From contig NZ_CAJGBN010000034.1 of the NCBI RefSeq assembly GCF_904426505.1, positions 62,001 to 126,000 on the forward strand: DNA of 64,000 nt, read 5' to 3'. Position 1 is the first letter of the stretch; every line of letters starts with the position of its first letter. Positions 48,900-53,814 of this stretch are shown here, in pieces. Below the pieces are notes generated by a model, which worked only from the letters and a program-made list of their open reading frames with translations, searched no databases and had not been told where the DNA came from. The translations under genes and the position numbers were made by a program. The stretch is from Rubrivivax sp. A210. Lineage in GTDB: Bacteria; Pseudomonadota; Gammaproteobacteria; Burkholderiales; Burkholderiaceae_C.

Positions 48900-50525
48900 A
48901 TGACACCCAGCCCAAACCCAAACCCGCCCAATGCCCGCATGGTCGTCATCGGCGCCGGTCTCGGCGGTCTCACGGTGGCGCTGGAACTGGCCCGCTACCA
49001 CCCGGTGCTGGTGCTGGCCAAGCGCGAGCTGGGCGAGAGCGCCACGGCCTGGGCCCAGGGCGGCATCGTCGGCGTGCTGGGCGACGACGACAGCGTCGAA
49101 TCGCATGTGCGCGACACCCAGGATGCTGGCGCCGGCATCGTCGACGAGGTCACGGCGCGCTTCATCGCCGAGCGCAGCGCGCAGGCCGTGCAGTGGCTGG
49201 TCGACGCCGGCGTGCCCTTCTCGCCCGATCCCGCGGGCCCGCTGGGCCTGCACCTCACGCGCGAGGGCGGCCACGCGGTGCGGCGCATCGCGCATGCCGC
49301 CGATGCCACCGGCAAGGCCATCCACGACGCCCTGCTCGAGCGAGCGCGCGCCCATCCCAACATCGATCTGCGCGAGCGCTGGATGGCGGTCGACCTCATC
49401 ACCTCGCGCCATCTCAAGCGGCGCGAGAGCCCGCGCTGCTACGGCGTCTACGCCCTCGACATGGACCGCGGCCGCGTCGAGACGCTGCCGGCGCGCGCCG
49501 TGGTGCTGGCCACCGGCGGCGCCGGCAAGGTCTACCGCTACACCACCAACCCCGAGACCGCCACCGGCGACGGCACGGCGATGGCCTGGCGTGCCGGCTG
49601 CCGGGTGGCGAACATGGAGTTCATCCAGTTCCACCCGACCTGCCTGTACCACCCGCAGGAGCGCAGCTTTCTCATTACCGAGGCGCTGCGCGGCGAGGGC
49701 GGCCATCTCACGCTTCCCGACGGCACGCGCTTCATGGCCGCGCACGACGCGCGCATGGAACTGGCGCCGCGCGACATCGTCGCCCGCGCCATCGACTTCG
49801 AGATGAAGCGCCACGGCCTCGATCACGTCTGGCTCGACGCCCGCCATCTCGGCGAGGCCTTCCTGAAAGAGCACTTTCCCACCATCCACGCGCGCTGCCT
49901 GGAACTTGGCATCGACATCGCGCGGGCCCCTATCCCCGTGGTGCCGGCGGCGCACTACACCTGCGGCGGCGTGGTTACCGATCTCGACGGCCGCACCGAC
50001 CTGCCCGGCCTCTACGCGGTGGGCGAGACCACCTACACCGGCCTGCACGGCGCCAACCGCCTGGCCAGCAATTCGCTGCTCGAATGCGTGGTGGTCGGCT
50101 GCACCTGCGCCGTCGCCATCCAGAACCAGAAGGAGATGGCCGAGCCGCCGCTGCCGCCCTGGGACGAGAGCCAGGTTGAGGACGCCGACGAGCAAGTGGT
50201 GATCGCCCACAACTGGGACGAGTTGCGCCTCTTGATGTGGAACTACGTCGGCATCGTGCGCACCACCAAGCGGCTGGAGCGGGCACTGCACCGCATCAAG
50301 CTGTTGCGCGACGAGATCGACGACTACTACGCCAATTTCCGCGTCAACCGCGACCTGCTGGAGTTGCGCAACCTGGTCGTCTGCGCCGAGTTGATCGTGC
50401 GTTCGGCACTGCGCCGCCACGAAAGCCGCGGCCTGCACTACAGCCGCGATTTCCCCGACACGCTGCCGATCAGCTTTCCCACCGTGCTGACGCGGCCGGC
50501 CACCAGCGGAACGAAGCGACGCTGA
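48900..50525 (+). CDS. nadB: L-aspartate oxidase
   Basis: FAD enzyme that makes iminoaspartate for NAD synthesis. The 541 residues carry the FAD motif VVIGAGLGGLTVAL, ATAWAQGGIVGVLG, HTREGGHAVRRI in the active site (LTREGG), VLATGGAGKVYRYTTNPE and PAAHYTCGGVVTDLDGRT, plus GANRLASNSLLE. The C-terminal helical domain includes VCAELIVRSALRRHESRGLHY. No Shine-Dalgarno is obvious. Its partner nadA is 2.2 kb away on the other strand, separated by the c-di-GMP genes. Confidence 0.95.
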   Translation: MTPSPNPNPPNARMVVIGAGLGGLTVALELARYHPVLVLAKRELGESATAWAQGGIVGVLGDDDSVESHVRDTQDAGAGIVDEVTARFIAERSAQAVQWLVDAGVPFSPDPAGPLGLHLTREGGHAVRRIAHAADATGKAIHDALLERARAHPNIDLRERWMAVDLITSRHLKRRESPRCYGVYALDMDRGRVETLPARAVVLATGGAGKVYRYTTNPETATGDGTAMAWRAGCRVANMEFIQFHPTCLYHPQERSFLITEALRGEGGHLTLPDGTRFMAAHDARMELAPRDIVARAIDFEMKRHGLDHVWLDARHLGEAFLKEHFPTIHARCLELGIDIARAPIPVVPAAHYTCGGVVTDLDGRTDLPGLYAVGETTYTGLHGANRLASNSLLECVVVGCTCAVAIQNQKEMAEPPLPPWDESQVEDADEQVVIAHNWDELRLLMWNYVGIVRTTKRLERALHRIKLLRDEIDDYYANFRVNRDLLELRNLVVCAELIVRSALRRHESRGLHYSRDFPDTLPISFPTVLTRPATSGTKRR

Positions 50526-50528
50526 GCT

Positions 50529-52319
50529 TCAGGTCAGCGTGCCGAAGCCGGTGCGCGGCGCCACCTCGACGCGGGCGCGGCCGTGGTGCTTGGCGGCATA
50601 GAGGGCGCGGTCGGCGCGCGACAGCAACTGCTCCAGCGTGCTGCCGTGGCGCGGAAAGAGCGCGATGCCGGCCGAGAACGAGACGCTGGGCAGGCGGCGC
50701 CGGCCTATGGTGTTGCGTTGCAGCTGGAAGGCCTCGAGCAGACGGTCGAGCATGTTCTGCGCGCCTTCGCCGTCGATCTCGGGCATCACGGCGACGAATT
50801 CCTCGCCGCCGTGGCGGGTGATGACGTCGCTGCGGCGCAACGACTGCTGCAGCAGCGCCGAAAACTGCTTGAGCACCAGGTCGCCGGCCTGGTGGCCGTA
50901 GGTGTCGTTGATGAGCTTGAAGTGGTCCAGGTCGAGCAGCACCACGCACAGCGGGCGGCCGTTGCGGCGCGCCAGCTCGAGCATCGCCGGCGCGGTCTCG
51001 AAGAGGTAGCGGCGGTTGTGCAGGCCTGTCAGCGGATCGTGCAGTGCCTGCTCGCGCAACTGGGCCTGCAGCATGTCGGTTTCGGCGATGCGGGCCTGCA
51101 GCGCGGCGTTGAGATCTTCGAGCCGGCGGCGGTCGTCCTCGGCCGAGCGGTGTGAATCGACCGCGCAGTCACGCTCGCGCCGCGCATTGCCCAGCTGGTG
51201 GGCGATTTCCAGCGCGATGTAGCGGGCGCGTGCGCTGCGCCCCACCAACTGCTCGTGCAGCTCATGCACCTGGCGCATGCAGCGCAGCGCCGCCGCCACG
51301 TCGCCGGCGGCCTCGCAGGCGTCGGCCAGCACCAGGTGCAGCTGCAATGTGTCATAGGGATCGTCGCCCAGGCGTGCGCCGTCAAGGCGGTCCAGTGCGG
51401 CTTCGGCCAGGGTGCGCGCGGCGGCGGCGTTGCCGCGCAGCAGGCGGCAGCGCGCGCCGACCCAGGCGCGCAGCACAGCGCCTTCCTCGTCGCCAGTGGA
51501 TGTGGCGCCGGGCGCACCTTCGGCGGCCTCGAGATGGCGCAGCGCCGCCTCGATCTCGCCGCTGCCCAGGCAGGCCAGGGCCAGCGAGCCGACATGACGC
51601 TGGGCCGCGTCGGGCATCAACTCGGCGGCATTGCGCTCCATGAAGGAGGCCATGGTCTGGGCGCGCTCGAAATCGCCGGCCGCGTGGTAGATGCGCACCA
51701 GGTGGGATGCGGCACTGCCCACCACCGGGCGCGCGCCGGCCTGGCGTGCCGCCAGCAGGGCCTGCTCGCACAGCGTGCGGGCGTCTTCCAGGTTGAACAG
51801 CGTGTGGTGGTAGCCGCCCAGGGCGTCGGCGGCGGTGATGCGTGGGCCTGCCCAGCCGGTTTCGTCGGCCGCGTCGCGTGCGGCGTAGAAGTGGCGCAGC
51901 GCGGCGTCGGCCTGGCCCAGGGCCTTGCAGGTGGCGGCACGCGCGCTGTGGGCGATGTAGCGCTGCATGGGGCCGGGCTGCAGGCCGTCGCGGCGGGCTA
52001 TGCCGGCCTGCAGGCCGGCGGCCTCGGTGTGCCGGCCGCTGCGGTGCAGGGCCAGGGCCTGGATCTCGTCGCACAGCGCCAGGCCGGTGCCGTCCGGGCC
52101 CAGCACCAGCAGCTGGCCGGCCTCGTGCAGCGCGGCCTGGGCGGCCGCCTGATCGCCCTGGCGCGCCTCGACCCAGGCCGTGATGAGCCAGCCCTGGGCC
52201 GCATCGGCGCCACCCGCCCGGGTGAGCGCCTGGCCGCAGTCGCGTGCGGCGGCCGGGTCCAGCGTACACAGCTCCCAGCCGCGCGCCACGGCCTCGCTCA
52301 GCGGCGGGGCATCAGACAC
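50529..52319 (-). CDS. diguanylate cyclase with TPR-like N-terminus
   Basis: Makes cyclic di-GMP from GTP. The 596 residues have about 400 helical repeat residues resembling TPRs, a short coiled coil (about 380-430), and a GGDEF domain. DLDHFKLINDTYGHQAGD and the active-site GGEEF (504-508) are intact, and the inhibitory RxxD is RRSD at 495-498, so product inhibition is likely. No membrane segment is visible. The GTG start overlaps the end of comFB by 8 nt, coupling the two. Confidence 0.92.
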   Translation of the reverse strand: MSDAPPLSEAVARGWELCTLDPAAARDCGQALTRAGGADAAQGWLITAWVEARQGDQAAAQAALHEAGQLLVLGPDGTGLALCDEIQALALHRSGRHTEAAGLQAGIARRDGLQPGPMQRYIAHSARAATCKALGQADAALRHFYAARDAADETGWAGPRITAADALGGYHHTLFNLEDARTLCEQALLAARQAGARPVVGSAASHLVRIYHAAGDFERAQTMASFMERNAAELMPDAAQRHVGSLALACLGSGEIEAALRHLEAAEGAPGATSTGDEEGAVLRAWVGARCRLLRGNAAAARTLAEAALDRLDGARLGDDPYDTLQLHLVLADACEAAGDVAAALRCMRQVHELHEQLVGRSARARYIALEIAHQLGNARRERDCAVDSHRSAEDDRRRLEDLNAALQARIAETDMLQAQLREQALHDPLTGLHNRRYLFETAPAMLELARRNGRPLCVVLLDLDHFKLINDTYGHQAGDLVLKQFSALLQQSLRRSDVITRHGGEEFVAVMPEIDGEGAQNMLDRLLEAFQLQRNTIGRRRLPSVSFSAGIALFPRHGSTLEQLLSRADRALYAAKHHGRARVEVAPRTGFGTLT

Positions 52320-52602
52320 GGGACCTCAACGCCACCCGCGTCTTGACGAAGCCAAAGGCGTACTCCACCGCTTCCTGCAGCGCATGCTCGTGCTCGGTGC
52401 GCTCATGGTTGCTGAGGTAAAAAACGTAGTCGACCTGGTGACGGATGTAGCGCGGCGCCAGCTTGTTGAGCGCGACGCAGGCGACATCGGCCAGCAGTTC
52501 GGGGTTGTCGCCGACGCCGGGGTGGCGCGCCGCTTCGGCGAGCACGAGGTCGAAGACGGCGTTCTCGTTGTGGTTGTGGACGGTGGTGAAATCGACGGTC
52601 AT
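52312..52602 (-). CDS. ComFB-family protein
   Basis: A 96-residue ComFB (late competence) family protein. HNHNENAVFDLVLAEAARHPG and CVALNKLAPRYIRHQVDYVFYLS are the family blocks. ComFB proteins of cyanobacteria have been reported to bind c-di-GMP. Here the gene overlaps the diguanylate cyclase start by 8 nt, so a c-di-GMP receptor next to its own synthase is plausible. GGAG lies 9 nt before the ATG. Any competence role is not implied. Confidence 0.8.
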   Translation of the reverse strand: MTVDFTTVHNHNENAVFDLVLAEAARHPGVGDNPELLADVACVALNKLAPRYIRHQVDYVFYLSNHERTEHEHALQEAVEYAFGFVKTRVALRSRV

Positions 52603-52678: not shown

Positions 52679-53791
52679 TCAAGCGGCGCCGATGTTCTTC
52701 ACCAGGCCGCCGCGCGCCGGCGCCAGGGCGGCGGGATGGCGGGTGACGAAGTCGAGCATGCGTTCGATGCAGCCCAGGGCGCGGCCACGCACCGGCTCGG
52801 CCACCGTGATCTCGCCGCTGCCATGCTCCAGGCAGGCGACCACGCCTTGCAGGCCGTTCATCGCCATCCAGGGGCAGTGGGCGCAGCTCTTGCAGGTTGC
52901 GCTGTTGCCGGCCGTGGGCGCCTCGATCAGCGTCTTGCCGGGCGCCAGTTGGCGCATGCGGTGGAGGATGCCGTTGTCGGTGGCCACGATGTAGGCGCTG
53001 GCGCTGCCCTGCACCACGGCGGCCAGCAATTGCGAGGTGCTACCCACCACGTCGGCCTGCTCGACCACGCTGCGCGGCGATTCCGGATGCACCAGGATCC
53101 GCGCGCCCGGGTGCTCGCGCTTCAGCAATTCGAGCTCGAGGCCCTTGAACTCGTCATGCACGATGCAGGCGCCGTCCCACATCAGCATGTCGGCGCCGGT
53201 CTGCTCCTGGATGTAGCGGCCGAGGTGGCGGTCGGGCGCCCACAGCACCTTCCTGCCCTGGGCGTGCAGGTGCGAGACGATGGCCAGCGCGCAGGAACTG
53301 GTCACCATCCAGTCGGCGCGCGCCTTCACGGCGGCGCTGGTGTTGGCGTAGACCACCACCTCGCGCTCGGGATGGGCATCGCAGAAGGCGGCGAATTGAT
53401 CGGGCGGGCAGCCGAGGTCGAGCGAGCAGGTGGCGTCGAGATCGGGCATCAGCACGCGCTTGTCGGGGCTCAGGATCTTGGCGCTCTCGCCCATGAAGCG
53501 CACGCCGGCCACCACCAGCGTCTGCGCCGCGTGGTCGCGACCGAAGCGCGCCATCTCCAGCGAATCGGCCACCAGGCCGCCCGTGGCCAGGGCCAGGTCC
53601 TGCAGGTCGCCGTCGACGTAGTAGTGCGCCACCAGAACCGCGCCGCGCGCCGCCAGCAGCGCGGCGGCGCGTTCGCGCAGGCCCTGGCGCTGGGCCGGGG
53701 TGAGAGGTGCCGGCACCTTGGCCCAGGCCTGGGCGGTGCAGGTGGCGCCGCTGGCGTCGGGGCGGGCGTAGTCGTAGGCGATGTCGTTCAT
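52679..53791 (-). CDS. nadA: quinolinate synthase
   Basis: [4Fe-4S] enzyme condensing iminoaspartate with DHAP to quinolinate. From the ATG at 53791 it has 370 residues with AGGA 7 nt before. The three cluster ligands are expected in TCSLDLGCP (C122), [10 protein letters not shown] (C209) and [14 protein letters not shown] (C300/C303/C306). [15 protein letters not shown] and [12 protein letters not shown] are further signatures. The longer frame in front of it is an artefact. The 76-base gap beyond its stop holds nothing I can name. nadC is not in the window. Confidence 0.96.
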
Positions 53792-53814
53792 GGGTTTTCC
53801 TGGGCGGGCAGGGG

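Follow-up and report, generated by a model that had tools for sequence, protein, structure and literature searches.

The closest described relatives of the protein studied here are the cyanobacterial CdgR/ComFB proteins, represented by Slr1970 and Alr3277 and by the Synechocystis structure 8hja, which gave its best match by both profile and fold. In the extracts of the literature on which we draw, Slr1970 and Alr3277 are termed ComFB homologues, the protein is described as a c-di-GMP receptor, and ComFB proteins are said to occur in many phyla (PMC12313861). In Anabaena, c-di-GMP is reported to influence cell size and viability through CdgR, and in the extract of the same paper a two-hybrid assay gave no interaction of CdgR with the major cyclases (PMC13075795). 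Transformation of Bacillus subtilis did not require comFB, for which a regulatory role was suggested, according to the extract used (PMC4381287). In Piscirickettsia, one strain of the two studied was modestly affected by comFB knock-down, according to an extract that describes comFB-like proteins as largely uncharacterised (PMC12955456).

We analysed a window of 64,000 nucleotides, meaning the whole stretch of DNA under study, from an organism that groups with Rubrivivax (GTDB-style genus). Its comFB gene (52312-52602, minus strand) starts with ATG and encodes 96 residues that its open reading frame, Pfam match, AlphaFold model and fold matches identify as a four-helix protein of the ComFB/CdgR type. 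The protein matched Pfam ComFB (PF10719) with 62.7 bits (cut-off 25) over model positions 1-81 of 83, and the predicted structure was four-helical with a mean AlphaFold pLDDT of 87.6. Conservation was highest at residues 39-58 (DVACVALNKLAPRYIRHQVD; 52429-52488, minus strand), and D39, C42, L45, Y52 and D58 were invariant when 24 diverse sequences were aligned. Foldseek placed 8hja, which is CdgR with c-di-GMP, first (probability 0.99, TM-score 0.61, E 0.14) and B. subtilis ComFB (4wai) second (probability 0.57, E 0.99). VIA-align gave Z 7.8 over 87 residues (rmsd 4.8) for 8hja and Z 7.5 over 86 residues (rmsd 3.9) for 4wai, with the row after these at Z 6.0. These fold scores are modest, as the Foldseek E-values are weak and a Z below 8 in a helical protein may reflect a common arrangement only. 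Kinship with CdgR is therefore carried by a profile of the 24 sequences, which found 8hja at E 1.2e-6 with all remaining matches at 0.28 or above; the window protein alone as query reached 8hja at only E 0.34. We did not accept kinship with the Foldseek rows beneath the ComFB entries (probability below 0.1) or with the VIA-align rows at Z 5-6 (sigma factor domains, DXR). In the alignment with 8hja, DxAxxALNRLPxxY was largely common to CdgR and the ComFB proteins of the window clade, and the clade signature R51-Y-I-R54-H-x-V-D58 (RYIRHxVD) was mostly missing from CdgR, so the residues of the ligand pocket may differ in the window clade. The window protein is also shorter than the 8hja chain (96 versus 179 residues), and the four-cysteine zinc site of B. 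subtilis ComFB (4wai) is absent, C42 being the sole cysteine in its 96 residues.

The gene behind comFB (50529-52319, minus strand) starts with GTG and encodes a putative diguanylate cyclase of 596 residues with a TPR-coiled-coil-GGDEF layout, as judged from its open reading frame, Pfam, AlphaFold and a fold search. Pfam recognized GGDEF with 162 bits and TPR with 31.6 bits (cut-off 30.1). The AlphaFold model (mean pLDDT 87.8, pTM 0.65) predicts a TPR-like superhelix (helices within 7-337), a long helix (341-426) and the GGDEF domain (425-582). A sequence-only reading of the locus had described the GGEEF catalytic motif (residues 504-508; 50796-50810, minus strand) and the RxxD inhibitory site (RRSD, residues 495-498; 50826-50837, minus strand) as intact, and alignment bears this out: GGEEF and R495xxD498 were invariant in 25 aligned sequences, window included, and present in all 30 genus frames that hold both TPR and GGDEF. 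With GG(D/E)EF as GGEEF and the metal-binding aspartate in DLDHFKLIND, the protein has the signature residues of diguanylate cyclases.

The same reading had claimed that the two genes overlap by 8 nt, and bases 52312-52319 (GTGTCTGA, minus strand) are indeed common to both open reading frames, running from the cyclase GTG start within comFB to the comFB TGA stop. When we looked for the overlap across the genus (56 loci, window included), 24 of the 33 loci that carry the TPR cyclase had a GTG exactly at -8 relative to the comFB stop, compared with 2 of the 23 that lack it (Fisher p 1.8e-6, species kinship ignored). It does so because the last-but-one sense codon of comFB is CGT in these loci, whereas loci without the cyclase mostly have CGC. 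An AGG codon at the possible ribosome-binding place was likewise seen in 10/33 loci with the cyclase and 1/23 without (p 0.019, kinship again ignored). Among the nine cyclase loci with no GTG at -8, two start at -4 and the rest later or ambiguously. Given 24/33 versus 2/23, the overlap looks maintained, and this pattern of codons suggests that the position of the cyclase start within comFB is under selection.

Genes for NAD synthesis flank the pair. nadA, encoding quinolinate synthase (52679-53803, minus strand; Pfam NadA 333 bits; start codon of our choosing), has its stop codon at 52679-52681, 76 nt upstream of the comFB start and on the same strand. nadB, encoding L-aspartate oxidase (48900-50525, plus strand; NCBIfam L-aspartate oxidase equivalog), converges on the cyclase gene tail to tail, with the stop codons 3 nt apart. 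We found no terminator-like site between nadA and comFB, so a shared transcript is plausible; no promoter-like site was found at the locus, which says little, and no riboswitch was found there. Antisense to the 3′ end of nadB lies a match to the Rfam Betaproteobacteria-1 RNA (window 50381-50492, minus strand), which at 24.9 bits is below the cut-off of 49.4.

The neighbourhood of comFB proved to be the more general and less expected observation. comFB shared a stretch, mostly of about 12 kb, with nad genes in 55/55 loci from relatives in the genus; in the family outside the genus, where 60 of 101 matches were covered, it did so in 41 of these 60. Where nadA or nadC lay upstream on the same strand, the nearer of the two to comFB was one or the other about equally often. 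Of the 55 genus loci, 53 had nadA and 52 had nadB no more than 3 kb from comFB. Our own profiles found no nadA, nadB or nadC near comFB in 47 loci of the class outside the family (49 of 55 neighbourhoods, less L199 and L200, which our ComFB profile missed). All 55 genus genomes with comFB contained nadA compared with 13 of 26 without comFB, a co-occurrence inflated by physical linkage and incomplete assemblies. The other 13 of the 81 genus genomes had neither gene: three of these (G041, G073 and G077; 95-97% complete) may use another NAD route, and in G042 the locus ends at a contig end.

It had been proposed that the comFB unit separates nadB from nadA, and this does not describe the locus well: comFB itself belongs with the nad genes in the genus and in much of the family, and the cyclase is the added part. 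We rejected comFB as an insert splitting the two genes, as most relatives show nadA-(nadC)-comFB with nadB convergent. We also inspected ten comFB-less genus loci, from the 26 genomes without a ComFB match. In six of them nadA-nadC abut nadB (L222, L223, L224, L226 and L227, and likewise L219, where nadA is cut), L220 has the cyclase between nadC and nadB, L221 has nadB with no adjoining nadA, and in L225 and L228 a contig end falls inside the cyclase. The bond between comFB and the genes of NAD synthesis across much of the family gives ComFB a concrete output to test. Among the matches listed in our literature search we recognized no paper linking ComFB to NAD.

Of the 81 genus genomes, 55 had ComFB matches, 56 in total; matches also occurred in 105/299 of a family sample, four of them from the Rubrivivax genus, in 1/200 of an order sample (the window's own), in 56/369 of a class sample and in 33/397 of a phylum sample, all from the same class. 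The TPR cyclase stands behind comFB in 33 of the 56 genus loci, window included, and is absent from 23. TPR and GGDEF share one frame in 30 of the 33; this set includes two loci cut by contig ends (L056 and L065), one with TPR but no GGDEF (L054) and one with a stop-broken cyclase (L037). A search of the 81 genus genomes for the TPR part gave 34 strong matches, with E-values up to 1.6e-46, and 32 of these lie beside comFB. One of the other two is at a contig edge in L225, the nearest relative (nadB 93% identical), and one is in L220, where the TPR cyclase directly follows nadC (L220:1826-4569), comFB was not found and no comFB remnant could be seen by eye in the 260 bases between nadC and cyclase. 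In L228 a GGDEF end lies ahead of nadB at the contig edge. Genus genomes that have comFB without the cyclase at it showed no strong TPR match elsewhere. On a quick NadB tree (84 rows, 28 with cyclase), the presence label changed 10 times compared with a shuffled mean of 23.7, and well-supported branches force at least four changes; one early gain of the cyclase followed by several losses is only one reading of this pattern.

The expectation that comFB would be found next to GGDEF genes in relatives was thus borne out within the genus and not as a general rule beyond it. Of the 60 family loci outside the genus, one had a GGDEF gene within 3 kb of comFB, no more than chance would give, and the class loci gave 2 of 47, with two more at 3.7 kb; in phylum loci, where only 1.5-kb flanks were covered, the count was 6/27, five from one genus. 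Counted by genus, the pairing occurred in about 4 of 62 compared with about 2 expected (p 0.15), the expectation resting on GGDEF density in eight genomes and 62 being an approximate genus count. We therefore rejected a general comFB-GGDEF pairing, since outside the genus enrichment was not clear, and regard the cyclase as a genus-limited addition to a comFB of the nad locus.

Other genes were seen around comFB in individual lineages. In L035 a Cache-HAMP chemoreceptor gene (L035:6379-8184; Pfam run on L035 only) stands in the slot of the cyclase, and the four R. gelatinosus-type loci (L035, L045, L070 and L077) all carry a frame of 601-603 residues there. L079 and L083 have a HAMP-GGDEF gene between nadC and comFB, hence upstream (L079 6344-9025; Pfam run on L079 only), and the slot of L079 holds a 210-residue protein with no Pfam match. 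L123, a family member whose comFB is away from nad genes, has a PilJ-PAS-GGDEF gene after comFB (L123:6317-8059), which its congeners L212 and L213 do not share. Five loci were covered in the gammaproteobacterial genus g520 (8 comFB genomes), and four of them (L334, L343, L344 and L345) have a GGDEF gene next to comFB in divergent orientation. Elsewhere in Gammaproteobacteria comFB is often in or near a pdxA-rsmA-apaG-apaH group (L158, L160, L169, L175, L176, L188, L192 and others); within 3 kb of comFB, the 47 class loci outside the family had rsmA in 11, apaG in 12 and apaH in 12. Pfam scans of neighbours list the 25 commonest families and covered 86 of 93 proteins upstream and 82 of 89 downstream, and small genes may be missed because gene calls near comFB came from our own composition score.

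We next consider the ligand. Kinship with a c-di-GMP receptor had been anticipated, and this part stands on the profile match and the best fold match; Synechocystis ComFB is reported to bind c-di-AMP (KD 2.6 µM) as well as c-di-GMP (PMC12313861, extract). A search for the diadenylate cyclase family matched none of the 81 genus genomes, with the search control positive in 11/14, and we therefore set aside c-di-AMP made by the host as the ligand. GGDEF matches were present in 8/8 genomes checked, two of them of the genus, at 17-57 each, with 29 in the window genome. On these genome counts, c-di-GMP is the likelier of the two known ComFB ligands for the window protein.

We give about even credence to the view that, in the Rubrivivax genus, a comFB of the nad locus has been joined by a translationally coupled diguanylate cyclase to form a receptor-plus-cyclase unit. 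In such a unit nadA, comFB and the cyclase would be on one mRNA, and ribosomes finishing comFB would restart at the overlapping GTG, so that the amount of cyclase would follow that of ComFB. Through its TPR superhelix the cyclase may receive a ligand or a partner protein, with the long helix passing this input on to a GGDEF dimer. The c-di-GMP produced would be handed directly to a ComFB dimer, and ComFB with bound c-di-GMP would act on a target, most simply de novo NAD synthesis, because that is where comFB sits in most loci of the family. Several findings speak against a coupled unit. The clade signature is mostly missing from CdgR, Anabaena CdgR did not bind the major cyclases in the two-hybrid assay, the fold scores are modest and GGDEF genes show no clear enrichment near comFB outside the genus. 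The cyclase is also absent from 23/56 loci and solo in L220, and other genes use its slot.

These last observations bear on a less likely alternative, in which the gap from comFB to nadB readily accepts new genes, the cyclase is functionally unconnected to ComFB and the overlap does no more than ensure that the cyclase is expressed from the nadA-comFB transcript. Such hitchhiking would account for the chemoreceptor of L035, with three similar frames, and the 210-residue protein of L079 in the same slot, for the upstream HAMP-GGDEF genes of L079 and L083 and for the cyclase of L220 without comFB. It sits less well with an overlapping start retained in 24/33 loci and with a distribution in which 32 of 34 strong TPR matches are at comFB and none occurs elsewhere in genus genomes whose comFB stands without it. 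The coupled unit can also be placed within a broader proposal, which we consider improbable, that ComFB regulates de novo NAD synthesis in the family by reading c-di-GMP or an NAD-type dinucleotide at the nadA-nadC-nadB locus and that Rubrivivax added a coupled, TPR-controlled cyclase. If true, one operon would sense, make and read the signal that sets the NAD supply.

By analogy with SiaC-SiaD of Pseudomonas aeruginosa, a GGDEF cyclase and its partner protein, ComFB might instead be a protein switch of the cyclase and not a receptor of its product. The top fold match of the cyclase model was SiaD complexed with its activator SiaC (7e6g), SiaD was its second NCBIfam match (NF038266; 163.8 bits, below the equivalog cut-off of 290), and siaC sits just ahead of siaD. 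However, the match to 7e6g is limited to GGDEF and its helix, which are common to many cyclases, the SiaD model of 252 positions leaves no space for the TPR part that the window cyclase has, and ComFB occurs without the TPR cyclase in 23/56 genus loci and in 60/60 other family loci. SiaC is not known to be a ComFB protein. We consider a switch of this kind decidedly unlikely.

A further idea is that ComFB of the window clade senses a linear dinucleotide or a pathway precursor (NAD, nicotinate adenine dinucleotide or Ap4A) and that the cyclase converts NAD status to c-di-GMP. ApaH hydrolyses Ap4A, and comFB is found with nadA, nadC and nadB in the family and near apaH and apaG in 12 of 47 class loci each. 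The ComFB specificity tests named in the extract of PMC12313861 cover ATP, ADP, AMP, cAMP, cGMP and c-di-GMP; NAD and Ap4A are not among them. The ligands reported for ComFB proteins in the extracts used are cyclic dinucleotides, with zinc in addition in B. subtilis, and we hold this idea to be very improbable. The idea that ComFB serves type IV pili or natural competence, like its cyanobacterial counterparts, and that its nad position is historical has slight prospects in our judgement: deletion of Synechocystis comFB is reported to lower transformation and raise piliation (PMC12313861, extract) and L123 has a PilJ-PAS-GGDEF gene behind comFB, but B. subtilis transformation was unaffected by comFB deletion (PMC4381287, extract) and the nad neighbourhood offers no hint of competence.

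The proposed receptor-plus-cyclase unit can be set beside described systems. Cyanobacterial comFB adjoins hfq (PMC12313861, extract). B. subtilis comFB likewise shares 4 nt with comFC, the gene that follows it (PMC4381287, extract), but belongs to the comF competence operon, whereas the window comFB lies among nad genes. Salmonella NadR likewise connects c-di-GMP with NAD synthesis, a link described as new in 2025; NadR does not belong to the ComFB proteins but combines repressor and enzyme activities in one trifunctional protein, and the extract mentions no adjacent cyclase (PMC12421817). Direct local pairing of cyclase and receptor is described for B. subtilis DgcP and DgcK with DgrA and YdaK (PMC7064775, extract), where the receptors are of other kinds and contact has been shown, whereas the Rubrivivax pairing is known from gene order. 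Next to these systems, Rubrivivax provides a naturally occurring pair of putative receptor and cyclase with which local c-di-GMP signalling can be studied.
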